A stretch of 64,000 bases of DNA, taken from Pocillopora verrucosa (Eukaryota; Cnidaria; Anthozoa; Scleractinia; Pocilloporidae). Shown here in pieces: positions 4,885 through 64,000 of the stretch. The stretch's first letter is position 1. Each line of letters begins with the position of its first letter. The stretch spans positions 13,630,287 through 13,694,286 of the forward strand of contig NC_089320.1 of the NCBI RefSeq assembly GCF_036669915.1, given 5' to 3'. The notes beneath the pieces are model-generated. The model was not told where the DNA came from. It worked only from the letters and a program-made list of their open reading frames with translations, and did no database searches. Both the position numbers and the translations under genes were made by a program.

Positions 4885-7800
4885 TCATCGAATAAAAATA
4901 TTTCCATGTGGATTTTGTATATTCTTCAACTCTTTGTCAGAGTATGACCCACAGGGGTCATGCGCTGGAAAATCCTCTCCTGTGCAACCATCAAAGTAAT
5001 AACAATGATAATCAGCACCTTTAAGTTTATAGGCTGGTCCACGATGGTAATTTCGGCCAAAATATGCGGGCGCTTTTCCCAGTAGACAATTTTCAGTGAT
5101 GTGTTTGGCAATTATACAGTTAGCGGAACCATATTGCCACTGAGGTAAACTTCCTGTTCCTGAACAAATAATCCAGTTGTTGATGTTGCTTTTGATTAAT
5201 ACCTTGTCCCCAATGATTGCCCATTTGGAGAATTCAATTGCATTGAAGTCCGTTTCGTTTAAAGGTGGAGTATTAGATGTTGGAACATCGACTTTATCGG
5301 GATTTTTGACGTCCCAAGTTGGTTGGGGTGTGATTGCGTTGGAGGGTGTCGAAAAGCTTTGATAGTTAGTAAAGGCGTAACTCCAAACTAAAGTCCAGCC
5401 TTCTCCATCGGTCTCCATCTCGCAGTAAGCTTTGAACGCGTTATCATGGGAACCATCAATATCGAGCCAATAAACACCGGTAGGAAGGTTAAATGAAGAC
5501 AGAGACTTGCAAGAAGAAAAAGGTACTTGTTTAGCTGAGCCAAAAGCTGGAAGTTAAAGCAAGAAATTTTAACAATTAATGGATATCAATTTCGAATATG
5601 GCTTGTTTTAACTACAACACCAAGTGTAGTCTGGCCTACAAGTACCTTGACATGTTTTGCATGTGCGCTGAAATGATCCAATGACATTGGAACAGTGGGC
5701 GTGGGTGGAGCAGCTGTGATTAGCTGTTGCACATTCGTCCAAATGTAAAAGAAATTTAAGACCTTAAGATGATTAAACATTCATTCATATCATCAGATTG
5801 TGTGCCCGTTTGAAGGGTTCTCGCGGCCCTTTTTACGCCTACCAGACTATTCTTCTGTCAGTTTAATTTCCCTTTTGTTAATTTTAAATTACATTGATTT
5901 CGCTTCTTCTCTTTCTCACTGTCATGCCATCTGTCTGAACATTACTTCATCAACTGATCGGCTTGTCTTATTGCATATTGGATTTGGCTAACGGCCCATG
6001 ACTGGGGTGGGAGAATTAAACTGCATTTCTATTACCTTGACATGCTTTACCATCACCAGCATATCCAGATTTGCAGGCGCACTGAAACGATCCCATAACA
6101 TTTGAACAATCGGCGTTAGAAGAACAATCGTGAGTGTTCATCGTGCATTCGTCATTATCTTATGGAGATTGAAAAAAAAATATCCAATTGAAAATTAAGT
6201 CAATTAAAGATACAAGAAAAACTTTTACAATCTGATTTGGCTTCTCTTTTGTGGATTCTTTCAGCCCATTCTGTCAGCCTTGTGTCAATTTCATCATAAA
6301 TTAGTCAGTCTGAATATTTTTCAACCGGTCTGCTTATGTTAATGTTAGTTTGACATTTTTACCATCACCAGTATATCCTAGTCTGCACGCACACTGAAAT
6401 GACCCCACGTCATTCGAACAATCAGCGATCGAAAAAGTAATTCAGTTTAAAGTAAATCAATCAAAGTAAGAAAACAACACTTAGAATATGATTTCTGCTC
6501 TTTCGGTGGCTAACTTCAGCCATCCTGACTGTCTTTCTGCCCATCTGTCTTTCTCGTTGTTAATAGGACTATCAATCAGTTTGATCCGATATTTTTCAAC
6601 TGGTGTACCCGTGATATCTTTGAATAGGCTACGGTCCACTTGGTCGTCCAGACGTTTGTTCGTTTTTGCACACGTTCATCTGTCTCTCTGTCGGTCTCGC
6701 TGCCAATTCCACGATAAGTCAGTCCGTCTATTCATTTTTCAACCGTTCTGTTTTTTGACTCACTGTGTTTGCTCCACTCGGCTATCGCTCCATTTGTAAG
6801 CTGCATGAACTAGACTGCTCTTACCTTGACATGTTTTGCCATCACCAGTATATCCTGTTCTACACGCGTACTGGAATGATCCCACAGAATTTGAACTATC
6901 AGCGTCAGGAGAACAGTCGTGAGAAGCCATAATGCATTCGTAAACATCTTACAAAAATCGAAAAAATTCAATTGAAGATTAATCAAAAACAGATATCAAA
7001 ATAACTCTCAAAACCAGACGTTATGTTCCTTTGAGTCCTATTTTCTTCCTGTCTCCCTGTCTGGCTTTTATTCTTCCAGTTCCTATTAACATACATATAT
7101 CTGTGGATCTGTCTGTCTCTGTCGTTGTCTCTTCCAAGGTCATGATTAATCAGTTTGTTTCAACATTTTTCAAAATGTGTGCTAATGGATTGTGCATTTG
7201 ACTTGGGTAACAGTCCATTTGCCTGAGCGTAAGGACCAGTTTGCACTTACCTTGACATGCTCTACCATCTCCAGTATATCCAGATTGGCAATTGCACTGG
7301 AATGATCCCACAGAATTTGAACAATTGGCGTTAGAAGAACAGTCGTGGGAAGCCATCGTGCATTCGTCAACATCTTATGGAGAGAGAAAATAATAGTTAA
7401 ATTTAGGATATCATTGTCAATTAGTTTAAGATATAAAAGTCTCACTTGTGATTATTTTATCCACATTTGAAAACCATCACAGGATGCAATCGAGTTATTA
7501 CGATACACTTTTTTTTAATTTTTACTTTTTTGTTAGTATATTAATTTAGCCAAGGGGTCGTTAACTCGAAGAAAAAGTACATTGAAAGAATAATAATGTA
7601 TGAGTTTTAAGTTGAGCACGTTCTATGATATAACGCAAACATGTCGCATGATTTTGTGAAACACTTTTGTTTATTACACCCGTTTTGAAATCATTGGTGC
7701 TCCCTGTAATCTGAATGGCTCTAATTGGTGCGATTTATTCACGAATCGCACCATTTTTTGCTTGAAATCGCATCTTTTTCCCAGCCAATGAGGAGGCTAC

Positions 7801-9853
7801 GCTGAAAACAAAACAACCAATCAGATTTCAAGGCTTGTTTAAAGAAACCAATCAAATTTCAGGAAAATGAAAGACAAGTATCATGTGGCAAATTTTGCAA
7901 CTTTTGTTTCCAAAACTCTTATTCCCCCCCCCCCCCCCCAAAAAAAAAAAAATGGATGAATTTAATTTCAAACTGGCTCAGTACTGCATCAATAAAAATA
8001 ATTGAACTGACCAAAATTCCTGCATTTGGGTGATTTCGGAATGGGTGTAATAAAGTGGTTATTGAACCCTGTGTCGTGCAATTTTGGTCTGAAATCACAC
8101 TTGTGATTACAAATGGAACTCGCACTGCGCGCTTGTTCGATTTTAAAATCACTCATATAACTCGTATAGCTCTTACGCATCTTTCGTGCTCTCCAAACTT
8201 CCCGCGTGCTTTATATCTCGATGAACGCACGCTGACGTATGAACCAATTGTTAATTATTTAGCACTATCGAGTATTAGTAGTATCAGTTTTCTTTCTTTT
8301 TTTCTTTTACTATCACGATTTTGATCGTTTAGATATCAGCATCTAGTTAATTTTATGAGAATGGTCTTACGAACGAAACCTCTAACTCTTAATGTAATAT
8401 TAATGCCTCTGAGAAACCATAAAGATAGAGTTTTAAAACTAATTTAAATTCACCCCAAGATATACCTTGATAACAAGTTGCTCCTCCTTCCAATCCTTTA
8501 GGGCAAATACATCGATATCCTTTATTAGTAAACCCAGCTTGACATAATGTGTTGCTTGGACACGGGCTGCTTTCACAGGGATTCTATGAAGGTAATCAAA
8601 GGCTTAATAAAACATTGAAAAGAGGCTAGTTTATTTAATAATAATACATAAAGTTAAGGTTTTCACCTCGAAAGATGGTTCGTGATTATTGCACAGTTTT
8701 TATCATCAACAACCGGGGCGCATGCTCTGTCATTAAAGAGATATACATGTAGGTTGAGGAAGGTATTTGAAGGTACTTGTAGAAACATTTTAAAAAAAAA
8801 CTAATTCAAACTCAAAAAAAAGAAATTAAAAAATAATGGAATATATGGAAATTGTTGAAATGGCTTTAACACTTGAAAGATTAAAAATCAATTAAATGCG
8901 AACCACCAATTATGACTTCATGCCTTTAAGGCTGGTATACCGTTAAGATTCCTTTGACTTTTGGTTTTGGACTCCGGATCCCAAAGTTCTATAATTGTGA
9001 TTAGTTTTTGTTTCTTACCAAGATGTGTTGGTAGATGTACTCTTCCTTTTGTATAAAGTCGCTGCTGGAGCCTTGTAAGTGGGTGCGATTGCTGAGCTCA
9101 CATATTGGTACATCACTGTATAATGGACCATAGTTGTAGGACACACAGTTGGGTTCAAGGAAGCACTGCGTCATACACTGTGACTTTCTTCGAACACTGG
9201 TGTTTCTTATCATATGATTTTTAAGAATCTTGTGCTTTGCTTCAGGCTCAAATTGAATGATTCGGCAATCGTTGGAGAGAGCTATTTAAGAATATAACAT
9301 AACCACTCGCTGAGTTGAGTTACATGAGGTGCAATCACAACTAAATCATTTCCACCATTAAAAAATTAGATTGGAAAATTTGCCTCAATTTATTTCGCAA
9401 CGTCGGTGATAAGTTCCTTCGATTTATAAGATATATTAGGAGGTGAATCAAACAAAACGTTTCTCCTTCTGTAGGCCTAAATGACTGCTGATGACTTTGA
9501 CAGCCGCATCTGTTTAGCACTAAAACCTTTTTTTCGTTACATTTCTATCTTCTAGCTAACTTCAAACACCTTTTTGAAGGTTATTCGGAGAAAAAAAGAA
9601 AATCCGAGCCAGCCTTTACATCTTTACCTAACTTTGATCGAAATGTTTTCGACTGCTCCTCAAGAGTTTTCATTTTACTGGTCACAAACTAACAATTTTG
9701 ATTGATCTCAAGATGCACTATTGTTAATATCAAGGAGACTCCTAAAATGCCACGAGGAGAAATATAGAAAATGACAAATATGGAATTAAAATTCTTACAT
9801 GCATAAACTGAAGACTCCAAGAGATAGAAAACGAGATATATCACCCTTGCAAT
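4885..9853 (-). CDS. Gene A: secreted PAN-EGF-cbEGF-fibrinogen-like protein, canonical start codon lost
   Basis: Exons on the minus strand: 9853-9799 (signal type), 9281-9019 (PAN), 8583-8466 (EGF), 7373-7251, 6947-6825 and 6158-6036 (three 123-nt calcium-binding EGF exons), and 5546-4885 (fibrinogen-like, with stop). All junction phases agree and give 488 codons. The PAN exon carries CVSYNYGP and paired cysteines. The first EGF has six cysteines. The cbEGF exons show DECTM and GYTGDG motifs. The last exon has GVYWLDIDG and DGEGWTLVW, which is the start of a fibrinogen-type fold, and then diverges. Oddity: the codon aligned with gene C's ATG is ATT, and the frame upstream reaches a stop with no ATG. 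The gene is therefore either newly dead or uses an unseen first exon. A LINE lies about 110 bp upstream. It is the paralogue of B and C. The product would be secreted or in the extracellular matrix. Confidence 0.65.
5646..5741 (-). pseudogene. Degenerate cbEGF exon of gene A
   Basis: It reads DECATANHSC and CSNVIGSFQ like the neighbouring 123-nt cbEGF exons. About eight codons that would hold the GYxGDG turn are missing, one cysteine has become arginine, and the acceptor AG is gone. A donor GT remains. It is a dead member of the tandem exon array and is probably skipped in splicing. Confidence 0.65.
6355..6431 (-). pseudogene. Truncated cbEGF exon remnant of gene A
   Basis: Only the 3' part of a cbEGF exon is left (ADCSNDVGSFQCAC, then GYTGDG). 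The 5' third with the acceptor and DEC motif is absent, and the donor GT is altered. It is the fifth unit of the cbEGF exon array of gene A and shows that the array has contracted by decay. Confidence 0.65.
7919..7955. repeat. Poly-C / poly-A run
   Basis: A run of about 18 C is followed directly by about 13 A. It is a simple-sequence tract in the intron between the EGF and cbEGF exons of gene A. Confidence 0.9.
8150..8270. repeat. Dispersed repeat, copy also near 44570-44690
   Basis: The segment with gctcttacgcatctttcgtg and a following gaacgcacgctgacgtatg resembles 44580-44680 in the same order. It lies in an intron of gene A. No ends or coding capacity could be defined, so its class is unknown. 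Confidence 0.45.
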
Positions 9854-9965
9854 GCCCTCAATAGAACACTTCTGGTTGCAAAATGCGGATGGATCTTAGT
9901 TTTGCACAGAACCCTGTAAATGTAAATGTACACACATGGCTTGTGGAGTTATTCTAACAACGTTG

Positions 9966-12064
9966 CACACGGTGAACATTATAATTCCCAACGGGAGCTA
10001 AGGAAATTTTTTCTGGCGCGCAGCTTTCCAATTTCAGAATACGTCAACAGTCTACTTATCTCTGTACTGCGTACTTTTAGGCTTCGAACATTCTCGCAAA
10101 GAAATTTCCTCTTGGCAACTGCTTATGGCCGAAACTGCGAGGACCCTTCCGTAATTGTTTGTTCCATTACTCAAGAGGTCGCTACAAAGTGTGAGAGTCG
10201 CCAATTGAAAATCGCCTCTCTCCTGTGATACAAGGTAGGTATGTTAAAAACTTCTTCGAGTCTATAAGATAAATCATTAGTGCTTATCATGCGTAGTGCT
10301 CGCTTTTGCAGGCGTTCTAACTGATCGGAGAGATATTGCGGTAGAGCGGTATGAAAGACTGAACATGCATACTCTGCAACTGGGCGTATGCAAGTGATGT
10401 AGAAACTTAGAAGGTCATTAGCTGGCACTTTCGCGCGCTGTAATTGCCTAAGAAAGTAGAGACGCGCTGCGGCTTTCTTACCTATCATTTCTACGTGCAC
10501 ATTCCACTTCAAATCATTCGATATCATAACACCTAGTAATTTAGCGGATGGAACAACCTCGATGTTCGTATTGTTGATAGTAACAGGCTCTAAAGTATTC
10601 TCTGACTTTATGAATGATATTCTAAGTTCCTTGCACTTCGATTCATTCAACTGGAAACCATCAGCACGAGACTTTGTAACAAATTTATCAACGCGCGACT
10701 GCATCGAGCTGGTTTCGTTCTTTTCCACACACTCAGCGAGGGTAGTATCATCTGCATACTTCCAGATGTTCGTATTCGCCACACTCAGGTCATTAATCAT
10801 TACTAGAAATAACCATGGGCCGAGTTTAGTCGATAAGGCACTTTGCCGCCTTTGTAACAAGGATGACGTTATCCAAGGTGGTTCGGTTGAATGTACTTTG
10901 CGCGTACGCATAGGCATAACATGGTCAAGACCAGTCTTAATGATTTGTTCCAAAAGCGAGGTTTTGTCTTCACAACTGTCCGCGGAATTGAGTATAGTAT
11001 CCAAATCCACTGATTCTAGATAAGTGCGCATTGTTAGGCGCTTGCTGGGACGCATATTCCTCGACTGAATAGTGGTTGTAGAGCTATTGGACTTTATCCT
11101 CGCCTGCGGTTGAACTTCTATAGACATGTGATCCGAAAGGCCAAGTGGAGGGCGTTGGGTTGGGGTTTCGTAGTGGTCTTGAAGGTTGGTGAGAACTAAG
11201 TCGAGCGTTCTTTTTCCTCGTGTCGGAAAATGTACTATTTGCTTTAAATTGTAGTTGTTTCTAAGCCGTGTGGTTTGTAGCCTGTTAAAGTCTCCCACCA
11301 AACAAAGGCCACAGTTGAAATACCTTGTTTCGATAGATGACAAACACCTCTCTAAATACTCTAAAAAAGCAGAGTCATTAGCGCTTGGCAGGTGCTAGAA
11401 CACTCCAAGAAAACTAGAGCTGTATCTCTATGGGAGGACTACAGTAGGACTACTTTGAATCCATAACGCCTTGAAAGAAGGGTCTTCTAAATCGTCTACG
11501 ACTGTAAACTTTATCTTGATATACACGCACACACCGCCATGTTTTAACTCTGTTCTGTCCCTGCGGATGATATTGTAGCTCTCCTGCGCAACCACATTGT
11601 CATGAATGTGGCTTTTAAGCCACGACTCCGTAATACAAACAAGATCTAAATTAGCATACTTGACAACGTGGCGCAGTTCATCCACTTTGGAAGCCAAGGA
11701 CATGACATTCGAGACAAATAAAGATGGTACATAAGCCGTCGGTGAAACCTTCCTTTTTGCATCTGTAGGGGCTGGAGTAATTTGTATACAGTTCGCAGGG
11801 TTGAGGCATCGTAACGGAGCTGAAAACCAAGGACGGCCGCTAACTTTCAGTGTTGAAACAATAGCAATCTGTTTGATGGAGACTCTTTCTCTCTCTCTTA
11901 CGAGGCGACCCGCACGTTTCCCACGGTAAGAAGGCCATAGGGTGTTTAGAAAGAATTTACGAAAGCTTTTAAGGCGGTTGTAGGCCATTAGCACGAGTAT
12001 TGAAGGGGAGTTACACGGAGCTAAAAAATATGCAGCCACGCAAGGCGCCATACGATAGCAACCA
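9966..12064 (-). mobile_element. Defective LINE (non-LTR retrotransposon) with internal deletion
   Basis: The minus-strand frame 12051-11428 holds apurinic endonuclease motifs (VSNVMSLASKVDELR, LDLVCITESWL). A stop near 11395 interrupts it. The next frame, ending at 10171, continues the endonuclease (LCLVGDFNRL, LVLTNL, GLSDH) and then jumps straight into the late reverse transcriptase (TKLGPWLFLVMINDL, KYADDT). The early RT motifs are missing, so a large internal deletion fused the two domains. The flanks tggagttattct and tggaataattct look like a diverged target-site duplication. The uninterrupted paralogous sequence is near 20715. Motifs suit a CR1/L2-like or RTE-like clade. It is not active. 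Confidence 0.8.
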
Positions 12065-12847
12065 ACGTGGAATAATTCTCATTTACAATTGGTTAATGAG
12101 AACAAATTATAAGAACCCTCTATGATAACACCTGGAAAAATAGAATACGTTTTGGAGAAACGAAACGCTTATTATCGCTGTTTCAGTATAGCATGAGAGC
12201 AAAATTCTTGAAAAGTGATCCGCAAGTGACCACCTACTTTAGCAAGACAAACAATGAGAACATTTCCCACAACAATGTGATAAATTACATTTCTCAGAAT
12301 TGAGATAAAATTTAATTGTTTATGCATCAGACACTCAGTTGGAAAGCACCAGAGATACCGTAGCTATGTGACAGTGTTATAAAACTCTTATTAAGATAAA
12401 ATAATTCAATGCTCAGTACATATCATACCAATGAAATCAATTGATGAAATCGATGAAATGGACTCACTCACATAGTGATCCTAGAGCATCAGCTCAAACA
12501 GAAACAGAAATATATACAGGCAAAAAAATAACAATTTTTCAGCTAGGTTTAAAAGGTGAAAAAAGGAATAACAGACACGAGGAACCTTGTTGTACGTTCC
12601 GCCTTTGCTCCTTCATCAAACAATGTGTGAGATCTTAGCGTGCGTAATGTTGTCAGTTGTTGATTAGGGTGTCTCTAAAGTGTAAGCTAATTAGTAATAA
12701 CTGATGTTAGCTCCCTTATAAGTAACAATAAAGAAAGAAAGAACAAATTGGACGAACAATTACGAATACATAGCTGAGTAAACTATTACAAGCGAGAGAT
12801 AAATGCAGAAAATATGCAGAAAATAGAAGGAAAACGATCCCCATATT

Positions 12848-15689
12848 TTACTTTTCACAGATGTACCCTCTACGGTCTTCACACTCATTATCGTGCCACT
12901 CCGCATCGTAATTCCTTAGCAGAAATGATCCCATTCTTATTCCACTACAATTCTTCAAAGGTATGCCGCTTGGCTGGGATTCGTGCCACTTTTGAAATCC
13001 CGCGAGAATGCTTCCGTCAGACCACTTCCAGATCCCTTCAGTTTCTTCATCTGTCAATCCAATCCAGTAACCTACGCCATCAGCCAAAAATGTCGTTTTG
13101 ATAAAGTCGTTTTCTTCAGAGGAATCAATCTTCACCAACTGAGCACCATTGTTTGAGGAACATTCCAATTTTGCGCTGTGCCAGGACTTTTTGCTTACGG
13201 GAAGGTGAATGCCAACCTGCAGGACACCCTTAAAAAAGATAAAGAAATAAATGAATTAATGTAATCAAAATCGATATCCTAAGCTTGCTCTTATGTTTTG
13301 TATGAAGGGAACGCTTTGTATTGACTCGAACTTGACTCGAGACAGTTTTAATCATCATTTAGTGCATGTTTCTTCATATTGGAGTGGCTCTCATTTGCTT
13401 AAGTTTTTCAGAGGACAACGGTGACGAGGGCGAAAGCAGCAGTGACAGCGCTGACGAGGACGAGAAAAACAAAGCTCACACGGTTGGAAATCATTCGACA
13501 TTATATTAAGAGAGTGACCCAATTGGATCATTGTGGGACCTTTATAATCGATGAAAAAGCAAACCACGACTAAAAAAACATGGAATATAAAATTAAAAAC
13601 AATGATTACACATCGGACGCAATTTGAAATATTTAGGGTTTTGTAATCAAGTTGTAAACCTTACCAGGTGGAGTTAGACCAAGCATCATCTCTTTTGACG
13701 AAGATAGCGGCGACGATAGCAACAGCGGAAACGGAGACAATGGTAATGATGCTGATGATGACATCAACGACGGCGAAGGCAAAAGTGACATTGACGGCCG
13801 AGGTGAATACTTGGATGATGGCAATGCTGTTGATGACGACATCACCGGAGACGACGGAGATAGCGACAACGCTGAGGTTGGTAACCATGTTGACGAAGAA
13901 GACAATGCTAACCACGGTGACAACACAGCGGATGCTTTTTGAGATCATGAACAAATTTTATTCATGTCAAGTCATCTTTATTCTAGCTCTAAATAATTAT
14001 GGGACCTGTATAGCCTATCATCCTACAGGCTTCGTAAGGGTCGGAGAGAAACTTCTTACATAAGAGATAATTGAAAATCAGCTTTTAAACATAGTTTACT
14101 ATATGAACTAAAAAAAATTTTCATGATTCAGTCGATGTTGTTTGTTTGTTTGTCATTTGTTTTCGATTGGTTTAGTTTGTCTATATTGGAATTTTCGCAT
14201 TCTTTTGTAACCTTTTCCGCCAAATTATCATAGGCTGTTGGTTTTCCTTTAAGAAAAGAAAACAAGAGACTTGTCTTCATTATCTTGACGCAATATTCAT
14301 TGTTCAGTCATCAGTATCCAATAATTTAATTTTGTGACAATGGTCTTACAAACGAAAACAACTACATCATGCAAGTAACTGTCAGAAACGTAAGCCTAGT
14401 TACACTTCTCCCTAAGATATACCTTGATCAACATTTGTTCCTCCTTCAACGCTAATATATCGATATCCTTTATCAGTGAACCCAGCTTGACATAATGTGT
14501 TGCTCGAACATGGGTTGCTTTCACAAGAATTCTAAAAAGAATAAAATGAAAACACGTCTATAGAGTTCAGTCTATTGATTTTTTGTACCTGGGAGTCGAC
14601 GTTTGTGTAATAACTAATTCAATAAAAGGATGATTCGGCTCTTAATCAGGATTTAACCACAAAACACAAGCCGCCCAACTGAAAATAGTGTGTACTTTTA
14701 AGCAGTACACAAGTTCTAAGCCATAGATTGCGCTCTCTGTCGGTTTCTCTAATTGCACGGCAATAACGTTTCGCTTTTATGAAACAAATCAACAAGATAG
14801 CACGAGAATGGTGCATTATTTTGATACTGAAAAGTAATGGCGAGGAAAGTTAGAGCGGTTATGAACAACGGTTATAATCCTTATCTCGATGAGACTTCAT
14901 GGATTATACCTCAAGGGGGGAAATCACTACTAAAAAAATCCAACCAATAAAAACCTTTTTAAGATTTAAAAGCCTTTTGAGAACTTATTTATTAGCTGAA
15001 TCGACAAAGTATGTGAAACAATCATAAAAAGCAAATTAAAGTGCACAAATTAGAAATGTAATGTAATGGTTCGACGGTAGGACTGAATAAAGTGCATTGA
15101 GGGTTTGTTCATGACTTCTAATTAGATAAGAGAAGTAAGGTCTCTGTTGAAGCTGTTTTTTAGGTGCCCTCTCTGAGATGAAACAAGAGACTTAATTACT
15201 CACCACCTACGCAGAGCAGTTGAATGCGATCATTGTACTCTTAGACGAAATAAAAATAAAGAATAAGCTAAGTCAAAAAAATAAGCATCTTGAAATAAAA
15301 TTTGTTTGGAGGCGTAAATAAAAACGTCTCCCCATTGAGTAGGACAGTGGTCAGAATGGGACTGTGTGGACGCTGCAGCCCGATGACAACCAAATTAAAC
15401 CAGAAACATTATTTCTAAATTTCTGTCCTCAACTTAACTGCTTATAAGAAAAGTTACCTTGATAAAAAGGGACAATGACAATTAAAATCATAATCAAAAA
15501 ATTATCAAATAGATTCTGGAGATTTCGATTTCATTCGTCACAAATTGATAATTTTAAATAACATCTGGTCGTACTATTATTGCTATTAAGAGCTTCGTCA
15601 ATTCATGAAGCGAAAATAAACGAAATATTCATACTTTAATTAACTGATGACTTCAAGAGAAAGAAAACGAGACATTCACCCTTGCCATA
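12848..15689 (-). pseudogene. Gene B: broken PAN-less paralogue of gene C with C-type lectin exon
   Basis: Remnant exons on the minus strand: signal type 15689-15654, EGF 14531-14423, Ser-rich about 13940-13670, and lectin about 13225-12848. The lesions are independent. The signal exon is frameshifted into a stop after 11 codons and has no donor. The PAN exon is absent, although its flanking intron sequence aligns with gene C on both sides. The EGF lost its last three cysteines (RYISVEGG). The Ser-rich exon is frameshifted at its start. The lectin exon has a 20-nt deletion after its TGG CAT codons that removes a conserved cysteine and shifts the frame. The rest of the lectin fold is still open (YWIGLTDEETEG, WKWSDGS, EWHDNEC), so the decay is fairly recent. 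Confidence 0.8.
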
Positions 15690-16832: not shown

Positions 16833-19800
16833 TTACTTTTCACAGATGTACCCTCTAAAGTCTCCACACTCATTATCGTGCCACTCTGCATCGTAATTCC
16901 TGAACCAAAACGATCCCGTTCTTATTCCACCGCAATTTTGCTTACGTTTGCCATTTGGCTGGGATTTGTGCCACTTTCGAAATCCTGCGAGAATGCTTCC
17001 GTCAGACCATTTCCAGCTTCCTTCAGTCTCTTCATCGGTTAATCCAATCCAGTAATCTGCGCCATTAGCCAAAAATGTCGTCTTAATAAAGTCGTTTTCT
17101 CCAGAAGTATCAATTTTCACCAACTGGGCACCACTGCTGGAACATTTCAATTTTGCGTTGTTCCAGCTCTTTACATCTGTGGTAAGCTGATAGCACGAGC
17201 TTTGGAAAGAATGCCAATCTTCGGAACACGCTAAAAAAGGAAAAAAAAATTATTATTAAAATATATCAATTAAAATTAATTCGCTAAGCTCGTTCTTATA
17301 TTTTGTATCAATATCATTGTAGATATCTGTCTGTAAATCCTATTCCTAAGGAAGGGTCTCTTATGGTCAGTCAGAGAAGTCAGTCAATCAATCGGTCGAC
17401 CAATCAATCAATCCACCAATATATCAATAAGTTAAAAGGCAAAACTCTTTAACCGTAGAGAAATACAGTGATTGGCCTTGTTGCATTGAATTTCTTTTCT
17501 TTCTAAGGCGATCAAGTGCTAATCTTAAACTTGAGTTAACTCAATAACTTAAGTTAAGTTAAGTTATTGACATTCGATTTAGCATGGACTTCTTATGACC
17601 GTTACTTGAATTTTCCCACACCATATGGCTTTGACGACCTTAAAAATTTGCCTTAACTTAGAGAAATTTTGTCATTCTGTCATTCACTTAATTTCATATT
17701 TGTGTGACGCATATCTGGCCAAATTTCAGTGCGGACATTATAAGAATTGAGTTGTAAATTCGCCGAGAACGTTTTTATCACCAGTTCTTGTTCCATCATA
17801 ACGCCCTTCTTTCATTTTACTCGTGACTACTACCTCTGTCGTAGTATTTGTCGTCACGTAGTGTTTCGTCATAATCGAGCAGCTTTCATTTGGCCAAAGT
17901 TTCAGTATGGAACTTTTTAATTCTTTTGAAATACATACAAAGTTTAAGAATGGAGTTATAAACTATACCTGGTGGAGTTGGATCAGGCAATATGCCTGGC
18001 GACGAGGACGGTTGCGTCGGCGACGACCACGAGGATTGGGACGACGGTATTGACAGGGGTTGCGATGATGAGGAAGAAAGAAACGTCGACGTAGGCGTCG
18101 GTGACGGGGTTGACGACGTTGATGAAGACGAGGACGATAGTGATGATGTTGTCGACGACAACGACGAAGACGAAGACGATGACGACGGCGGTGACGACGA
18201 TGTCAAAGATAACGACAATGAAAGAGATGATGATGGAGATGATGATAATGATGATGGGGATGAGGAAGACCACGAGGATTGGGACGACGGTAGTGACGGT
18301 GATTGCGATGATGAGGAGGAGAGAAACGTCGACGTAGGCGGTGACGACGTTGACAAAGACGAGGACGATAATGATGATGTTGTCGACGACAACGACGACG
18401 AAGACGAAGAGGAATATGAAGACGAAGACGACGACGATGACGACGACGACAACGACGATGAGGAAGATAACGACAATGAAAAAGACGATGATGGAGATGA
18501 TAATGGTGATGATGGCGATGAGGAAGACGACAAAAATGTTGATAACGGTGACAACAGAGTGGACACTGCTGGAGATTATGAAAAAGTTATGTTCTTAAAT
18601 TATGTAAAAGTGCATAAAGTGTATCACGACCACACAATCACAACCTAAAAGTCATTCAGTTAATGACAAGTTTTTAAATAGTCTGGATATACTAGTAAGC
18701 ACTGACAAGCAATTGAGTACATGTGGTTGTTCTGCTTTTCTTGAAAAGCTAAATATTCATTTTGATATTACAGATTGGACAGCTAGTATGTCATTGAATC
18801 CTAGTATTCTTCGCCTTTTTAATGTTCCCAACCGTTTATCTTAGTGTTCCTAACCGTTTATGCTCTGACTTCAAATTGTTTCTCTTTGTCTGTTTCTTTG
18901 CTTGATTGAATATGCTTGTTTTTGTTTGTAAAAGAAATAAATTTCACCCCAAAATTTACCTTCATTGTAATTAGCTCCTTGTTCCAACCCTTCAGCAAAA
19001 ATACACCGGTATCCTCTATTAGTGAACCCAGCCTGACATAAAGTGTTGCTCGGACAGGGGCTGCCTTCACAGGAATTCTAAAAAAAAGGATGTAAGGGCT
19101 TAAGTCGGAGACAATGTGTGTATTCACAGTTTTAACTTACATGAGGTTGATTCGGGTTTAACCAGGATTTAAGCGCAAACACTAAATCACTTCATTGAAA
19201 ATATTGTCTACATTACATCATCAGAAGTACTTTAGGAATTTGGCATTTTCAGATGCTCGATGGACATGATTGGAATGATTTCATTATTTACTCAAGAGCC
19301 GTGTATGACATCTACAGAAATACTCTAAATAGCAATAGTTTCGTGTTATTTCACTTTGTCAAGAAAAAAAAAAGGCATTTCATCACTCAATTAAATTCAA
19401 GCGACTAATAACGTCATTTCTTGAGTAAGGTTGATTCATTTTTAAAAGAATATTTGAATTTTGCTTTGGATAATCGATCCAAAAGTGCTCTTATGATAAA
19501 TTGTTATGTTACTTACCAAGATGTGTTGGAAGATGTATTCTCTCTTTTGTAAAAAATTGCTGCTGGAGACTTGCAGGTGAGTGCGATTGCTGAGCTCACA
19601 TGTTGGTGTATCACTGTGTAATGGACCATAGTTGTAGGACACACAGTTGGGTTCTTGGAAACAGTTTGACCGACACTGTGACTGACTTTGAACACTGATA
19701 TCTCTTATAACATGGTTTCTAAGAATCTTATCCTTGGTTACAGGCTCGAATTGGATGGTTCGGCAGTTGTTGTTAAGAGCTAGTAAAGAATGAATCGCAA

Positions 19801-22000: not shown

Positions 22001-22053
22001 GACTATCACGTGCATGCCCAAAGTTTGACCACGGAGTAGATCCTCTGCTGTTC

Positions 22054-27052: not shown

Positions 27053-27269
27053 TTAAAATGTTATATTCTGTATCACTAGCACTAATTACAAGCACTCAGA
27101 AAAGAGGAAAGCTTGTTTCTAGCATGGTAAAAGATAGTAATAACATTTTCCCTTAGATCTTTGTCGATTAATAACGTTTACAAAACCAATGACCACGTGA
27201 TAAAAAACAAAAAACAAAAATCCCGGCCGACAGCAACTGCCAGCTCCTGTAAGAACCTCTGCACATTGG

Positions 27270-44150: not shown

Positions 44151-44164
44151 CGATTCAATCCCTA

Positions 44165-44466
44165 CGTTGATTATCATTCCATGAGGTTTTGTGAGTTTTT
44201 GCTGAACAAAATTCCCGGCACAGTAAGTTAAGGTCTCCCAATCAAAAACCACCCAACATCTTTAGGGAATCCTGCATAGCGAACAGAAATTTCAAAGTTG
44301 CGTGCCCCGTATTGATACAAAAGGGTTTTAAAATTCTCGCACTCTTAAGGTCAGTCCATGGTGATTGAGTTAGATTGTTTTGTGAAAACCAGTCTGGGTT
44401 AGTTGTTCCTCTGGCATTGAACTTCATAGGCGTAACTTCTGCTCCATTCGTATTAAGCACTACACG
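44165..44466 (-). pseudogene. Stray inverted FReD-like exon 3
   Basis: On the minus strand it reads NTNGAEVTPMKFNARGTTN, SQNNL and SPWTDLKSA, matching exon 3 of genes E, G and H. It then shifts frame where three codons are missing (CINTGHATL), and loses the cysteine-tryptophan segment before the end. No other exon of such a gene lies near it on that strand. It is an isolated, inverted, dead exon copy between genes F and G. Confidence 0.8.
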
Positions 44467-44479
44467 AACGTTAAGTCAT

Positions 44480-45560: not shown

Positions 45561-45568
45561 CAAAGGTT

Positions 45569-51500: not shown

Positions 51501-51649
51501 CCTCTAAATATGGATTATGTATATAGAAGTCATTTATTTAATGAGATCTCTTTAAAGTTTACTATGTATTATTTATCGGTGAACTTTTTTTATATATTTC
51601 TCAAGATGACGTCGGAGGTGCTGAGGTTATGGTTGTGTACGTACGTTGA
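45569..51649 (+). CDS. Gene G: secreted PAN-EGF-FReD-like protein
   Basis: Exons: 45569-45623 (signal, MAILNLFAVFVLTLAVHG), 46522-46784 (PAN), 47181-47295 (EGF), 47813-47926, 48317-48498 and 49475-49805 (FReD-like 1-3), and 51606-51649 (terminal, ending AEVMVVYVR). The sum is 1104 nt, 367 aa. A second PAN acceptor 9 nt upstream (tttttag, exon start 46513) keeps frame and has the better pyrimidine tract, adding three residues. PAN has CELICYEDPDCVSYNYGP. The EGF has six cysteines with GYWCVC. The FReD-like part carries VYCDQTSDGGGWT, NARGTTN and CDWEKFHPVPAILYS. The last intron is enlarged by a 1075-bp TTAA element. It is very close to gene H and to I, with introns aligning too, so the duplication is recent. 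Confidence 0.85.
47955..48140. repeat. CCGTTA-motif cluster in intron 4 of gene G
   Basis: Five CCGTTA motifs (aaccgttaagcg, agccgttaggcg, aaccgttagtcg, agccgttaactg, aaccgttagccg) lie within about 170 bp, each followed by a cgtaaaa- or gtgaaca-like stretch. The same cluster occurs in I (63040-63210) and, shortened, in gene H (56540-56600). Gene E does not show it in this intron. CCGTTA is the reverse of TAACGG, which fits the animal Myb consensus. Confidence 0.6.
50302..51376. mobile_element. TTAA-target non-autonomous element, copy 2
   Basis: It is flanked by TTAA on both sides (50298-50301 and 51377-51380). Inverted ends are GAGCTAATGTCAACATGCATC and, on the other strand, GAGAGGATGTCAGCATCCATC. 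Similarity of the two ends continues for about 130 bp (tcctacttttata blocks). It sits in the last intron of gene G. The same intron of gene H (58720-58723) has a single TTAA with the flanks joined exactly, so it is an empty site. There is no transposase frame. An AT-rich insert near 50690-50760 is absent from copy 1. Confidence 0.88.
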
Positions 51650-52909: not shown

Positions 52910-55900
52910 ATGTCTTTCACTTGGATCTGTTTTCTGTTAGTGGAGCTGTGTTCAATGATACTCAAGATTGCCTGGTCACAAGGTTGGTTATTCAAGTATG
53001 TTCTTTGACAAAATGAAAACTGAGAAATCGATTCTTTCACTGCTACCGTATAAAAGGGCGCGATTGACAGAAAATAAAGCAACGATGCCATCGTTATTAT
53101 GTTTTCAATGTTTGCTGCAAGCTTCAGATGGCGGCTTTTCAATTTCCTAATGGAAATAGCACGTTAGCATTTACCGCTGTTTACTCTTTGACATTATGGG
53201 CCGGTTATTTGCTCGAGGCCAAACTAATCCAAACCACGTTTTTACCACATCGAGACGTTTTTGTTTAATATTTTACAGTAGGAGGATAGTACATTTTAAT
53301 ATGTTTAGAGAAGTTGTGGGCCCTTAGTGTACCAACTCATTTGCTCATTAAAAAAAACATGATGAACTTTTATCTGCAGTTCACCCAGAATAGTTTTAAG
53401 AGGTGTATTACAAGCAAAACTTCGACTCTCACAAATGAAGGAATTTACTGGAGTGGCAATATTCCGCTTTGCGTGGAACCTAAGCATTGTAGGAAAGCCT
53501 TTTAAAACTAAATAAGATAAGCCTAAACGGACATGGTAACAGTTTCCTAATTAACATTCATGTCTCGTAACCTAAGTAAAATAATTATGAGAAAATGGAA
53601 GCAGTTCGTCTCCTGACATAAACATGTCATTGAACATTATTATTCCGAAATAGGGTAAAAAAAAAACTTTTCGAGCCAATTTTTTGTACAAATTCAGGTC
53701 ATTGCCGCAGGTGTGTTACATCTGTATACACGTTTTCCGACTTCAAACAGAACCGTTAGTTACCTGCGACTATTTAAATTAAAGCAAGTTAAAAATTTCC
53801 TTCACAGATAACTTTTACATACGCGAAAAAATAATAACTGAGTCACCTGTTGTCAAGAAGAAAAGAAGAAAAATTAACATTTTCCTGTTTTTATCTTATA
53901 ATGATATTTACCACCAACGAAACAGAACATCTTTCTTATAGTAAGTTAAGCCTCCTCGATTTTTATTTTTTAGATTAATCTCTGGCGGAATATAATTTTA
54001 AGGGCATCATAAACTTTCACAAACTTTAACATATTCTTTTCAACGCGAGAAAACAAACGCTTTTTTTCACACAGCGTATGAGTTCTTTAGTCTAAACATC
54101 ATATCTGCCCCAATTGCAATCAAGGGGTGATTTTTTTCGCTGTGAAGGAAGTTCAAGTTCAATAAAGAAAAGACAGATTTCCATTAAAATAAACGAAAAA
54201 TATTTCGCATCATTTGGTGTCGATTTAATATCTGAGCGTCATTCCAGCGAATTAATTCGTTGGAATGGCACTCGCTTATTTTTCTGTTGACCGGCTTTAT
54301 TTGCCTTAAAGGAAGCAAAATCGAATAGCCTACAATTTTATCGTATTCTGCATTTCATAATCTATTTATTGTCATTAACTTTATTTTGGTTTCATGCGAA
54401 ACATCGCGTGTAATTTTTTTTTCTCTGAAGGCACTGGCTAAGGTGCGGAGTAACCTTAAAGGCAAAGACAGAAATAATGGCAAGAATAGTAAACTTTTAT
54501 TATTGATAGAAACAAGACCACTTTCATCCGTCACTCGAATAATAGGAACGAATCTATCCAAAAAACCCCATTCAAAGTTTCTAGTTTGCAGGAATCAATA
54601 CGTTTCTTCCCCAAATAATTACAGTTAAGAATACTCTAACTTATAGTAATTATTTTGAACCCACAGAAACTCGTAATAATTTGGATTCCGAGTATAGGCA
54701 GAATTCAAGACGGAATCTACTTTCAATGGACAAGTTCCATTATCTAAATTTTCCCCAGAATTGACATAATCACACCATAAGACGACTTTGAATGTATCTT
54801 AATATGTCTTCATCATCCTCTCTGCGTTTCTGTGAACTTTGCCGCCAAAGAAAAAAGTGGTGCGCGTTATTGTCCTGTAACAAGTTCAACGACCCTGACA
54901 AACTCAAAGAAAGCAAGAGTTCGCATGACTAATCGTTTCCAAATGCATCACTTTAAGTTTCCCAAATGTTAGTACTTGCTCTAGATGTAAAGAACTCGCT
55001 TTATGTAAGGGGGATAGAAAGCAATTAGCAGGAGTCTCGAGGGATAAAAGAAATTTTCATCGACACCTATCGATAATGTTGATCAGTTGCGGATAATGAT
55101 GGTTGCTTTTCTTATTACTTGTGACAGCAAATTCAGATGAGTGCAGAGCCATTCTATTCAACCCAGTCACCAAAGACAAGTATTTAATTCATCACATAAT
55201 CAAAACTGTGCCAGTTGAAAGTGAAGTAAGCTGTGAACTAATTTGTTACGAGGACCCCGACTGTGTGTCTTACAACTACGGGCCAGTATTAAGTGAGATC
55301 CCTTTATGCGACATGAATAACAGCACTCATTTACAAGTCCCTAACGTGAATTTCATTACCAGAAATGGCTACAGCTACCGAGGAATTGAGGTAAGCCTTA
55401 CAACCTAAACACAATTAAACGTTTTCTATCGTTGAAACCTCACGTGACACGACTGACTGGTAGACCACAGAAATGTAAACAGAAAAAAAAGGTAGCTATG
55501 TTTTGGCATGATTACTTGAAATCTCTAATAAGGCAATTTTAAATTAGTAGGACGCGGTGCGGCATACAACAGACCTCGTTCGTGGCGAAATCAATTTCCC
55601 AAATGTTAGAGATCAGGTTTAGCCTTTTTTGTAAAAAATAACTCTGATGACCTCTTTTTAAAATTACAATGATGAGATTGATGATAATAATAATAACGAT
55701 GGTGATTTGTCAAGAAGCATACGTGCTTTCAGCATACAAAAAAAGAAAGGCATTGTTTCCTTTTTTTCATTTTTTTTCATCACAGAATCCTTGTGGAAGC
55801 AGCCCATGTCAGAAAAATTCTACTTGTCAAGCTGGGTTTACTTCAAAAGGATACCGTTGTGTATGTCCACAAGGACTCGGGGGAGAGAATTGTGACCAAG

Positions 55901-58900
55901 GTATTTTAAGCTTATTCGTCAAGTAATGCAAATATTCCTGCCTTTTAATACTTCTTGGTATTCTTGTATTTCTGCTCAAGAAAATTTCCGAAATTCTCTA
56001 AAGTCATTGACTGCATGTTTAAATGTGTTAGTTGTGTATAACGGGAAACCTCATTCTCACTTCTCAGCAAGTATTTGTTTATATCAATAATCACCTTAGT
56101 TTTCGATGGCCAATCCGTTTCGTGGCTGGCTTGGGCAATCGCTAACCTCACCTCTAACACAAATCGTCCAATTACGATTTAGAGAACAAGAGTTATTATG
56201 TTACGACTTGTAGTGAGGGAGTCATTCGTGCCAGCCTATTGAAATCATACATAAAAGCTTTACACAAAAAGTATTCGATTTTGATGTTTTGTAAAGTGAG
56301 AATACAGGGATCAGACCAGTACAACAGAGAGACCTACGGATCACTGCATCGTGTTCAAGGACTCGTATAAGCACCTTTTCTACTTTTAATTTTTCCAGTC
56401 ATTCTGACTCAGAACTGTTCTCAAGCCCCAAAGGAAACAGGAGTCTACAGAATTTCTAATCATAGATCAGACTCGTTCCCAGTGTACTGCGACCAGACAA
56501 GTGATGGAGGTGGTACGTCAAACTAAATAAAAGGATCTCGATGGGTTAACCGTTAGGCGTAAAACGGCCAAAAAATTCAACCGTTATGCATATTAAATTG
56601 ACAAATTTTAACTCTTCATGGTGACCAATTTACGTTTTCAACTCAGTTGATAACACTTGATTACCTTGTTATACTCTCCCACCGACGCAGAAACTTACCC
56701 CCTTTTTCCGAATAAGTAGTTGATTTAGAGGTGGCTAACTCACTTGGCTAGGAAGGTCCTTGGACTTAGGTCATGTCCATTCAGTCAATTCGTAAAACCA
56801 TATCTAGAGTTTTCCAAAGGAACAAGCATTTTTCACGAACCTGGACTATTTTTGACAATCTTTTTTCTATTTTGAGGTTGGACGATGATATTCAAATACA
56901 TTGGAGGAGATTCTTCCTCTCCAACTGGTGACACGTTATGGAGTTCATCCGACTCATTATCAGAAAATATTATCGCTGCCTTAGATACCACTTCGACCTA
57001 CCAGGGAAACTATAAAAACCGTATCGTTCAAAGTTGGCAAACTTTTAACCCTCGAGAGGTACGTCCGGAAAATATCTACACCACAGAGGGTTAGGCTAAA
57101 TGCACCTTAGCTTACAATTTTCTTATACAATGTTAATGTATTTCCATAGAAATGGCCTGTAAAAATAAATCAGTTAGACTTTTTTGGATTTTTTTTTTCC
57201 ATTTGCCTGATCGAGCTTTCCATCTTATGGAAGACTTGTCTTCAAATTGTCTGTCACGAAACACTTTTCCAGATGCTTTTCATCATGTTCCTAAAGACAA
57301 ACCAAGCGGACACTTTTCTGAACTGCTTGCCTCTTTTGAGAAGAATTAGGAATAGAAGAGAATGGAATATAAATAATATAAAAGAACATAAACTAAAACA
57401 ATTTGTTTCAAAGAGTGATATCACTGGCCATGCAATGAGATCTCTATTTGTTACGTTCTTTTGTTTACCTTACTTCCCAAACCTTTAGAATGAATGGTCG
57501 TGGCATTTCTGAGCTGAAACAAAAGTGCTCATTCAGATATTACGTTGAAAAGTACTCAGGGTGTTAGCTTTTAATGCTTCGAGGATGATTGAAAAAACAA
57601 GGGTTGCCGTGCCAAAGACAGAGTGATACTAGAACCAAGCCGATAAAACAACTTCTTGCTCAAAACTTTGCCTTCTCGAGTTTACATATAGTCATGTTAT
57701 GTGGTATTGATTGATTGATATTGATTGATAAACTGTCGGAATCCTTCAAAATAAGTTTGTAAAAAGATAATTAAAAATTGACTAACAATTCTTTAAATCC
57801 CCCGTTTTAACGATTCCTATCTTACCCCATACTGATGTATTTGACATGTAGACAACAGATCATTTTCTTGTATGACTTTAGGTTCGTGTAGTGCTTTACA
57901 CGAATGGAGCAGAAGTTATGTCTATGAAGTTCAATGCCAGAGGAACAACTAACGTGAACTGGTTTACACAAATTAATCTACTTCAATCACCATGGACAGA
58001 TCTTAAGAATGCGACAACTTTAAAACCCTTTCGCATCAATGGCCATCTAGGTGCACGAAACTTTGAAATTACAGCTAAGTACGCAGGATGCTCTCGTGAT
58101 GTTGGGTGGTTTATAATCGGAGGACCTTACTGTGCCTGGGAGAGATTTCACCCTGTGCCGGCAATTCTATACAGCAAGAAAACTCACAACATCAAATGGA
58201 ATAATGCTCAAGGTAGAAATTGTATAAAGAAATCTTGTAATACTTCTGTTACTGTTTTTGTTTGTTTTTTTTTTTTGTTATCAAATCAGGGAAATAACAA
58301 GATATTTCCTAAACAGACCTCATGAAATGGTTTCGTTGCCGTTCATTTATTCTTAATTTTTTTTTATTAAAGTAGATATAACGGTATGTTATAACCATTC
58401 TGTTTTTGTTTTGCTGAGATAATCGTAACTGTTCTAGTCGACTCCTTCTTGGATAACTCGGTAATTTCCTTTTCTTCTTCAGGGTCGTGACCAGGATTTT
58501 TGAAGCGGGGATGGGAGGGGGGGGGGGGGTCACACTGTCTCAAATAGAGAGTACTCGCTAGATTGCCATGTCAACCTTTGATAAATGTGCTGTAACAGTG
58601 ACATTTTGAGATACCCCGTTCCCCTACCCCCTCTCTATATTTAATCTGGGTGTCAGAATTTAATTGCAATTGTTAATTACAGGGGCAAAATCTAGAATGG
58701 AAATTAGGAGGAAAGAAATTTAATAACTGCACGAGTCATCTGAAATTTAACATTTCCGCTGATTACAAGGCCGGTGCTCAAAAACCGGTTTCAGTAATGA
58801 GAGATCAATTCTGCACTTTTTATTTGCCTTCTTCTCCATCCACCTATAAATTTGGATTATGTATCACGGCAATCGTTTATTTAATGAGATCTCAATAAAA

Positions 58901-59000
58901 AAGTTTACTATGTATTATTTATCGGTGAACTTTTTTTCATATAATCTTTTCTCAAGATGATGTCGGAAGCGCTGAGGTTATGGTTGTGTATGTACGTTGA
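52910..59000 (+). CDS. Gene H: secreted PAN-EGF-FReD-like protein with F-type first exon
   Basis: Exons: 52910-52982 (signal, MSFTWICFLLVELCSMILK to AWSQ), 55128-55390 (PAN), 55786-55900 (EGF), 56399-56512, 56877-57058 and 57882-58212 (FReD-like 1-3), and 58957-59000 (terminal, ending AEVMVVYVR). The sum is 1122 nt, 373 aa, with all phases matching. The body is nearly that of gene G. No MAIL-type signal exon like those of genes E and G was found upstream, so the first exon resembles the one at 36572 near gene F, making gene H a hybrid. A dead PAN-like exon (about 54667-54930) lies inside intron 1. The EGF has six cysteines, and FReD-like motifs are as in gene G (CAWERFHPVPAILYS). If the first exon is wrong, the start of the protein is unknown. 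Confidence 0.75.
54667..54930 (+). pseudogene. Dead PAN-like exon in intron 1 of gene H
   Basis: It reads PLCVSVNFAAK then KWCALLSCNKFNDPDK, the second half of a PAN domain of the gene F type (compare QCVSVNI). The first half is broken by stops and by a few bases of insertion relative to the copy at 60845. An AG acceptor (cccacag) remains at its start, but no donor follows. It is probably the leftover second exon of an F-type gene whose first exon is now used by gene H. Confidence 0.6.
56540..56600. repeat. Shortened CCGTTA-motif cluster in intron 4 of gene H
   Basis: Two motifs (aaccgttaggcgtaaaacgg and aaccgttatgca) remain from the cluster seen in gene G and in I. The following block (ccaccgacgcag near 56680) is shared with I but absent from gene G. 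Confidence 0.55.
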
Positions 59001-60844: not shown

Positions 60845-61110
60845 AAACTCGTAATGATTTGGATTCCGAGTAAAAGCAGAATTCAAAACAGAATCTGCTT
60901 TCAGTGGACAAGTTCCGTTGTCTGAATGTACCCCGAATTGGCACAATCACACCATATCATGACTTTGAATGTTAAATGTCTTGATCATCCTCTCTGCGTT
61001 TCTGTGAACTTTGCCGCCGAAGGAAAAAAGTGGTGTGCGTTATTGTCCTGTAACAAGTTCAACGACCCCGACAAACCCAAAGAAAGCAAGAGTTCGTATC
61101 ACTATTCGTC
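60845..61110 (+). pseudogene. Dead PAN-like exon in intron 1 of I
   Basis: Its second half is open as VKCLDHPLCVSVNFAAEGK and WCALLSCNKFNDPDKP. The first half has stops just after the acceptor (TAA in the frame that opens after cccacag). It corresponds to the copy at 54667-54930 and is better preserved. No donor is visible. Confidence 0.6.
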
Positions 61111-62365
61111 TCCAAATGCATCACTATAAGTTTTCCAAATGCTAGTACTTGCTATAGATGTAAGGAACTCACATTAATTTAAGGGGGACAGAACATCAAT
61201 AATGTTGATCAGTTACAGATAATGATGAGTTGTTCTTCTTTTTACTTGTGACAGCAAATTCAGATGAGTGCAAAGCCATTCTATTCAACCCAGTCACCAA
61301 AGACAAGTATTTACTTAATCACATAATCAAATCTGTGCCAGTTGAAAGTGAAGTAGGCTGTGAACTAATTTGTTATGGGTACCCTAACTGCGTGTCTTAC
61401 AACTACGGGCCACTACTAGGTGAGATTCCTTTATGCGACATGAATAACAGCACTCATTTACAAGTCACCAGCGTGAATTTCATAACCAGAAATGGCTTCA
61501 GCTACCGAGGAATTGAGGTAAGCCTTACAACCTAGACACAACCAGATGTTTTTTTTTCGTTGAAACTTCACTTGACACCACTGACTGGTTGACCAGAGAA
61601 ATATAAACAGAAAGAAAAGGTAGCTATTATCTGGCATGATTACCTGAACTCTTTAATTCGGTAATTTTAAATCAGTCGGACGCGGCGTGGCATAAACAGA
61701 CCTCTTTCATGGCGAAATTAATTTCCTAAATGTTGGAGACCAGGTGAAATCTTTTTTAAGCTTGATGCTTTTTCGAAAGAATGACTCTGATGACCTCTTT
61801 TCAAAATTACAATGATGATAATAATAATGATGATGATAGTAATTCCTCAAGAAGCACACGTGCTCTTAGCATACAAAAAAGGAAAGGTACTGTGTCCTTT
61901 TTTTTTTCATCACAGAATCCTTGTGGAAGCAGCCCATGTCAGAAAAATTCTACTTGTCAATCTGGGTTTACTTCAAAAGGATACTGTTGTGTCTGTCCAC
62001 AAGGATTCGGGGGAGAGAATTGTGACTAAAGCCTATTCATCAAGTAATGCAAATATTCCTGCCTTTTTTATGCTTCTTGGTATTCTTGTTTTTTTGCTTA
62101 AGAAAATTTCCGAAATTCTGCATTTTTAAATGTTAGTTGTGTATAACGAAAAACCTCCTTCTACTTCTTAGGAAGTATTTGTTTATATCATAATTATCTT
62201 AGGTTGTCGATGGCCAGTCCGTTTTGCGGCTTGGGGAATCATTAACTTAACACAATTTAGCATGTTTTTTTTTTCCCTCAAACCTACACATTGCGATTTA
62301 AAGAACAAGAGTTATTATGTTACGACTTGTAGTGAGGAAGTCAAACTAAATAAAAGGATCTCGAT

Positions 62366-63025
62366 AAGAGAGTAGATCGCGGCGCTTCGACTGCAATACG
62401 GTTCGTATGCCTTGTTTTTGTAGGCAGCGGCGAAGAACCTCTGATACACCCTTTATGTAGGGGAGAACGGCGGTAGATTTAAATTCTTTCGCAGGTTCTT
62501 TGTTGGCTGTTACGCTTGTTGTCTTTGCGAGTTTTCGTACAAATGAAGAAGGATAATCATTAGAAACAAGTACTGATGACAAGTTTTTCTTTTCCTCAGA
62601 GATACCTGACGGTTTCGTTGTGAGGTGTTTGGCTCGGTCCTATAGACACTTAACAAAACCACGCTTTACTGACTGAGGGTGATGTACATCATAGGTTAGG
62701 TACTGGTCAGTGTGGGTGGGCTTTCTGTAGAAAGTGGTAGTGAGAAGACCGTCTGTTTCCCTTGTGACTGTTGTGTCGAGAAAAGGAATGGTGTTATCTT
62801 TCTCGATTTCCATGGTAAAACGAATAGTAGGCTGTTGACTGTTTAGATGTTGTAAAAAAGCCATCGACATGGTCCCGGACTGTGAAAGTGTCATCTACAT
62901 ATCGTTTCCAGATCTTAGGTTTGCAAGTCGCATTTGTTATCGCCTGTCCCTCAAATTCTTCCATGTAAACACGTAAACAATCGACCTCATCGCCTGATGA
63001 AGACAATAAGCGCATATTTTATTAC
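62366..63025 (-). mobile_element. Penelope-like element fragment (reverse transcriptase C-terminal half)
   Basis: Minus-strand frames read CLRVYMEEFEGQAITNA, WKRYVDDTFTV (catalytic YVDD), then after a frameshift at a T run NTIPFLDTTVTRETDG, FYRKPTHTDQYL and FVKCL followed by a stop, then KNLSSVLVSND and KFKS-type tail residues. This order is typical of Penelope-like RT. No GIY-YIG endonuclease is present. Flanking aaggatctcgat (62354-62365) and aaggatctcaat (63026-63037) form a 12-bp target-site duplication inside the I pseudogene. The element is 5'-truncated and dead. Confidence 0.85.
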
Positions 63026-63039
63026 AAGGATCTCAATGG

Positions 63040-63215
63040 GCTTAACCGTTAGGCGTAAAACGGCCAAAAGATTCAGCCGTTAGGCGTACAAAATTGACAA
63101 ATTTAAACCGTTAGTCGTAAAAAAAATCAACCCCAAAGTATTTTCTGGTGACCACAATGGAAAGATATCAGCCGTTAACCGTAAATAGGCCAAAGTTTAA
63201 TCGTTAGTCGTAAAA
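63040..63215. repeat. CCGTTA-motif cluster in I
   Basis: Four CCGTTA motifs and one degenerate tcgttag lie in about 170 bp, collinear with the cluster at 47955-48140 in gene G. It lies just right of the Penelope fragment. Confidence 0.6.
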
Positions 63216-63255
63216 GCCATCAACATATTAAGTCTCTCGAGTAAGGGTCATCAGT

Positions 63256-63361
63256 ATCTCTCTGACAAAAGGCTAACGCTCGAAACGTCATCCCATAAAC
63301 TTTTTACGGTGGCCAATTTACGTTTTCAATCCTGTTGATAATACTAAATTATCCTGTTATA

Positions 63362-63411
<50 letters not shown>

Positions 63412-63425
63412 TCCAATTGATTCAG
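63256..63425. repeat. Dispersed repeat with possible hammerhead-type relic
   Basis: The block from caaaaggctaacgctcgaaac to the A-rich part after cccaccgacgcagcaccaca is present in I, partly in gene H, and in reverse near 21550, but absent at the matching place in gene G (48173). The order CTGA...GGCTAACGCTC...GAAAC recalls the hammerhead ribozymes described in Penelope-like elements. The core reads CTGACAA instead of CTGANGA, so it should be inactive. Confidence 0.4.
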
Positions 63426-64000
63426 AGGTGCCTGACTCACTTGGCTAGGGAGCTCCGTGGACTTAGGTCTATAATCATGCAGTCAATTCAAAAAAACAAT
63501 TTCTAGAGTTTTCCAAGGGAACAAGCAATTTTCACTAACCTGGACTATTTCTGTCATTTATTTTTATTTTAAGGTTCGACGATGGTATTCAAATACACTG
63601 GAGGAAATTCTTCCTCTCCGACTGCTGACGCGTTATGGAGTTCATCTGATACATTATCAGAAAATGTTATTGCTGTCTTAGATACCACCTCAACCTACTA
63701 AGGAAACTATAAAAACTGTATCGTTCAAAGTTGGCAAACTTTTAACCCTCAAGAGGTAAGTCCGGAAAATATCTACATCACAGAGGGTTAGGCTAAATGC
63801 ACCTAAATCCATGCACAAGTTTCTTGTGCAACGTTAATGTATTTCCTTAGAAATAGCCTGCAAAAATAAATCAGTTAGACTTTTTTTGGATTTTTTTGTA
63901 TTAGCCTGAGGTTTCTACCTTATGGAAACTTGTCTTCACTTGTCTGTCATGAAACACTTTTCCAAATGATGTTCATCATGTTCCTAAAGGTAAATCAAGC

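Follow-up and report, generated by a model that had tools for sequence, protein, structure and literature searches.

How one N-terminal head comes to stand before several unrelated C-terminal tails is the question raised by a gene cluster of the coral Pocillopora verrucosa. The window, a stretch of 64,000 nucleotides (NC_089320.1, contig C9 of a genome of 353 Mb in 52 contigs, positions 13,630,287-13,694,286), contains genes A to D on the minus strand and E to I on the plus strand, and together with fetched loci it forms a joined stretch of 236 kb. All coordinates are window-based, with negative values to the left of the window and values above 64000 to its right. We consider it likely that the cluster is a tandem family whose proteins, probably secreted, combine a signal peptide with a PAN-EGF head and one of several lectin-like tails, and that heads have been exchanged within it. 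Several neighbouring genes look like mosaics whose head was replaced during evolution with the frame intact.

Predicted genes of the cluster share a PAN-EGF head and its intron phases

The exons were placed by tblastn and Pfam, and their edges were set by hand at AG/GT. Nine genes (A, C, D, E, G, H, P, Q and U) were carried to the stop codon; F and J, the latter with GTGCG as its FR1 donor, stand outside this set. The PAN exon is entered in phase 1 and left in phase 0 (1>0), the EGF exon follows with 0>1 and the tail is entered in phase 1 in all nine models, as the first-pass annotation of the window had claimed; for A, D, H, P, Q and U, which were modelled without a signal exon, a single base preceding PAN was assumed. 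Phase 1 at the border of EGF and tail was also found in all of the further loci (5/5) for which the two edges were determined by eye. Complete frames open from ATG to stop were obtained for C (477 amino acids), E (369) and G (367). The shared head, its phases, the open frames and the mosaic genes described below are features of the cluster as read from its DNA.

The positions of the PAN and EGF exons and the kinds of tail named by that annotation were borne out by tblastn and by a Pfam scan of ten window frames, which lay outside the EGF, cbEGF and serine-rich exons. PAN_1 (PF00024) scored over the cut-off in the three PAN frames of the window that were scanned (3/3), Lectin_C (PF00059) did so in genes B and C (76 and 80 bits), where sugar binding is putative, and Laminin_G_3 (PF13385) with 68 bits in gene D. 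The description of the remaining tails as fibrinogen- or FReD-like held less firmly: the fibrinogen-like exon of gene A reached 20.9 bits against Fibrinogen_C, just below the cut-off of 22, and x4, the large exon in the FReD-like unit of E-H, showed no match to Pfam domains. Structure predictions were of low confidence for both the tail of gene A and x4 of E-H, with a mean predicted local distance difference test score (pLDDT) of 29.8 from 4 sequences and of 46.4 from 15 sequences, respectively. A signal exon, expected in every intact gene, was found in C, E and G, with a candidate in F, whereas the exon of gene A that is homologous to the signal exon of C (9800-9853, minus strand) has no ATG and the search in D, H and I gave none that was convincing. 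Secretion is therefore supported only for C, E and G, in which the signal exon was found.

Borders of this kind are known from class 1-1 extracellular modules, which are domains bounded by phase-1 introns, so that intron exchange preserves the frame (PMC8001218). The phases were indeed compatible with frame-safe swapping, as had been proposed, but this compatibility is expected and not special, because extracellular modules of animals generally follow the class 1-1 rule (PMC8001218). With class 1-1 exon-shuffled proteins the cluster shares the phase-1 borders and evidence of modules moved between genes. It differs from them in that neither PAN (1,0) nor EGF (0,1) is class 1-1 by itself, the same-phase borders being those of the PAN-EGF pair and of whole tails, and in that mosaics, junctions and remnant exons stand together in one tandem locus (PMC8001218).

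Genes A and U look like mosaics

The heads were compared in a tree of 23 rows, which was drawn without gene B and without K, L, S and T, the genes carrying a second PAN exon type (PAN2) that was compared pairwise only. The heads of gene A (EGF 8466-8583, 0>1; PAN 9019-9281, 1>0; minus strand) and gene C were sisters in this tree, although their tails are unrelated domains, and therefore at least one head-tail join has changed.

The second mosaic, gene U, was recognised by comparison with gene M. The segment at 80-98 kb is repeated at 134-153 kb with 87-95% identity, and colinearity resumes past the heads (100.1-103.8 versus 158.1-161.8 kb, 88-90%). The interval between the colinear blocks is 1.7 kb in M, with an EGF and a PAN of its own, and 5.2 kb in U, where the sequence matches E-type genes and supplies PAN, EGF and FR1. 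M and U are 97.5% identical in their tails, 48.7% in the PAN exons and 64.0% in the EGF exons. When U was modelled with E-type PAN, EGF and FR1 followed by M-type FR2, x4 and terminal exon, the frame ran uninterrupted through 348 codons to the stop, with AG/GT at the internal edges, and three of the four x4 donors tried keep it open. The own FR1 of U persists outside this model with a donor that appears altered by eye, and close to the junction on the tail side there is an inverted repeat of ~99 bases.

The tails of M and U (96.3-97.6 versus 150.7-152.1 kb) differ by replacement changes only, with a nonsynonymous divergence (dN) of 0.032 and a synonymous divergence (dS) of 0.000 over 161 codons; despite this dS, the introns in between diverge by as much as several percent when compared in 100-base bins. 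Positive selection in young duplicates (dN/dS of 3.28 for G-P, dS of 0 for M-U) is not claimed, the changes being too few.

One PAN exon appears to have replaced another

PAN2 was found in K, L, S and T, also as a 1>0 exon by eye and with a frameshift in the K copy. Its remnants were seen directly upstream of the current PAN in H (54670-54930, extent approximate), I (near 60968), Q and U, and were broken in the three examined (H, I and Q). They matched the hidden Markov model with E values of 1e-4 in H and Q, 0.11 in I and 0.069 in U; the remnants of I and U were assigned by DNA likeness. On either side of the current PAN segment, which is absent from S, most 50-base bins show H and S to be 80-94% alike, and a few bins are at 62-78%; the likeness stops, by eye, a few bases short of the PAN2 donor. 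Splicing two 1>0 exons one after the other would break the frame, and therefore the gain of one renders the other useless. L and S are 93.8% identical in PAN2, 46.8% in EGF and 76.4% in the tail, and their likeness drops within the PAN-EGF intron.

In these predicted gene structures, the PAN2 remnants and the colinearity of U and M beyond the head mark head replacement. The apparent junctions are located within the intron between EGF and tail for A and for the M side of U, within that between PAN and EGF for L versus S, and at the extreme end of the older PAN exon for H. Of the modular secreted family suggested by the first-pass annotation, the modularity thus came out stronger than claimed, with replaced heads readable in the DNA, and secretion was supported for the three genes named above.

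PAN-EGF heads and tails elsewhere in the genome

The best 150 PAN and best 150 EGF matches of the genome were listed, 148 of the latter entering the pairing count. Among the matches listed, 65 of the 150 PAN matches were followed on the same strand, at a distance of 78-1153 bases downstream, by an EGF match and 0/150 had one upstream, which argues that the pairing is not chance. Eight of the 14 loci fetched from beyond the cluster were scanned (L001, L005 and L027-L032, with L002-L004 and L006-L008 left out). The head was found before Fibrinogen_C on C3 and C8 (Pfam 5e-46 and 2e-52), the only sampled clusters with a clear Fibrinogen_C, and on C4 before a frame that is weakly COLFI-like, below the cut-off. 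On C9 it precedes a frame that is MAM-like by eye without a Pfam match (1.03 Mb) and a tail of ~160 amino acids without a Pfam match (0.26 Mb; L027, 6658-7143, minus strand); the same tail is seen in L028 (0.25 Mb; 5798-6268, minus strand), the Pfam run having been made on L027 only. The C6 locus has PAN and EGF in one frame, followed by a frame that is discoidin-like by eye without a Pfam match. On C11 a weak PAN match (E 0.04) stands before a fibrinogen-like exon, with no EGF detected there, and dozens of fibrinogen/intelectin-like exons, relatives of the gene A tail, form an array at 4.44-5.09 Mb of C11. Other relatives of the tails also lie in arrays, LamG mostly on C2 and x4 on C6 and C7.

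Comparison with known families

The likeness to snail FREPs that had been drawn for this locus holds in style. Snail FREPs and FReDs are likewise an expanded family in which varied domains are combined with a recognition domain at the C-terminus; a PAN/Apple domain occurs in one snail FREP, and a class with EGF and fibrinogen (FReM) exists (PMC7588048). The snail proteins carry one or two immunoglobulin superfamily (IgSF) domains (PMC7588048), whereas the ten window frames scanned gave no IgSF match at E up to 1, and by this criterion the predicted coral family is not FREP. Unlike in snail FREPs, the head is constant and the tail variable in the coral, with C-lectin and LamG besides the fibrinogen-like domain (PMC7588048). 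The NLR-B30.2 genes of zebrafish resemble the cluster in forming a large clustered family in which trees of N- and C-terminal domains disagree, but they encode NACHT-LRR proteins, and their pattern is attributed mainly to gene conversion among similar domains, exon shuffling having acted at the origin (PMC4852459). Tandem duplication and lectin expansion have been described in corals including Pocillopora, in a paper whose main text does not use the terms "PAN domain", "apple", "fibrinogen" or "exon shuffling" (PMC10236652). Among the coral and cnidarian papers listed as matches, from a collection that lacks most subscription papers, no title or start of an abstract describes a PAN-EGF-tail family.

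Proposed mechanism and alternative explanations

Unequal recombination, local duplication and deletion may have set the head of one gene before the tail of another, after which the superseded exons would have decayed; the frame would have survived the swap because the borders share their phases. More tentatively, the tails might bind different ligands and the PAN-EGF head might serve as a common adaptor for assembly or anchoring, in which case a swap could give a known head a new specificity, perhaps most likely for microbes, symbionts or matrix at the epithelial surface.

The mosaics could instead be misjoined copies of one locus produced by assembly or by haplotypes, and the 87-95% likeness of the two long repeated segments speaks for such an artefact, which we nevertheless regard as very improbable. 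A structural or effector function in skeletal matrix, mesoglea or cnidocytes, in place of recognition, is a rather unlikely but weightier alternative. It is favoured by a 2025 study of Nematostella, in which the FREP family is reported to be greatly enlarged and to have members in mature cnidocytes, with immunity or venom named as possible roles (PMC12549020); nothing decisive speaks against it, but the number of copies and the lectin-like nature of the tails are at least as compatible with recognition. It is also conceivable, though improbable, that the cluster still exchanges modules actively in the germline, reshuffling tandem heads and tails so often that head-tail sets differ between individuals of the species, and that neighbouring heads are perhaps even spliced at the RNA level onto headless tails to yield a combinatorial recognition repertoire.

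Exon shuffling has mostly been inferred from old gene structures. In this locus the junctions are found together with their likely donors, with remnants of exons and with mosaic frames that are still open, which makes the steps of such shuffling testable, namely duplication, deletion, junction within an intron and decay of the exon that was replaced. An exchange of heads would also suggest how new binding tails can be given to a fixed adaptor head in animals that lack adaptive immunity.

Organisation of the minus-strand genes

The tail of gene A ends in the fibrinogen/intelectin-like exon (4885-5546, phase 1 in, stop), preceded by cbEGF exons at 6036-6158 and 7251-7373 (each 1>1); degenerate cbEGF units near 5640-5762 and 6816-6951 lie outside the model. 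A suspected relict EGF exon at ~570-640, a weak match, was rejected since no EGF score in a rescan of the region exceeded the highest one from 50 shuffles. The 105-base segment 7410-7514 was tried as a dispersed repeat and rejected, being found in only two places including itself in a genome search that skipped very common words. Open frames at 10171-12078, between the head of A and the remnant B, are presumably reverse-transcriptase-like, as judged by eye.

Gene B (12848-14531) is a remnant with C-lectin (12848-13204), serine-rich (~13633-13944) and degenerate EGF (14424-14531) exons, and domain scans of the locus detected no PAN in it. Gene C (16833-20643) is complete with all edges modelled, consisting of signal (20589-20643, >1), PAN (19517-19779, 1>0), EGF (18960-19077, 0>1), serine-rich (17969-18568, 1>1) and C-lectin (16833-17230, 1>stop) exons. 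The nearest matches of the C-lectin are B and L1, within the same locus. The EGF exons of B and C have lost cysteines; in C the last two, which pair with each other in the EGF fold, are gone and the frame is still fully open. Gene D (22054-23617) comprises PAN (23349-23617, 1>0), EGF (23113-23227, 0>1) and LamG (22054-22688, 1>stop).

Organisation of the plus-strand genes and relicts

A relict F-type gene (25377-27274) retains a signal-like frame (25377-25427), which resembles that of F by eye, and a PAN fragment (27055-27274). Gene E (31718-36063) is complete, with signal (31718-31778, >1), PAN (32272-32534, 1>0), EGF (33071-33185, 0>1), FR1 (33754-33867, 1>1), FR2 (34208-34389, 1>0), x4 (35084-35414, 0>1) and terminal (36020-36063) exons. 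Gene F (38165-42781) is divergent, with a candidate signal (38165-38255), PAN (~38637-38887) and EGF (39837-39950), its tail exons FR1, FR2, x4 and terminal being placed at 40057, 41056, 41718 and 42738. An inverted relict on the minus strand (44167-45036) has an E-type tail and a signal exon.

Gene G (45569-51649), also complete, has signal (45569-45623), PAN (46522-46784, 1>0), EGF (47181-47295, 0>1), FR1 (47813-47926), FR2 (48317-48498), x4 (49475-49805) and terminal (51606-51649) exons. Gene H (55128-59000) has PAN (55128-55390, 1>0), EGF (55786-55900, 0>1), FR1 (56399-56512), FR2 (56877-57058), x4 (57882-58212) and terminal (58957-59000) exons; a conserved frame upstream of H and others, MSFTWICFLLL, was rejected as signal exon for its poor donor. 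Gene I (60870-63755), with PAN (61255-61517), EGF (61916-62026) and FR2 (63573-63755), is broken: the EGF end has a stop and no donor, a further stop lies within FR2, and the x4 exon is located beyond the window.
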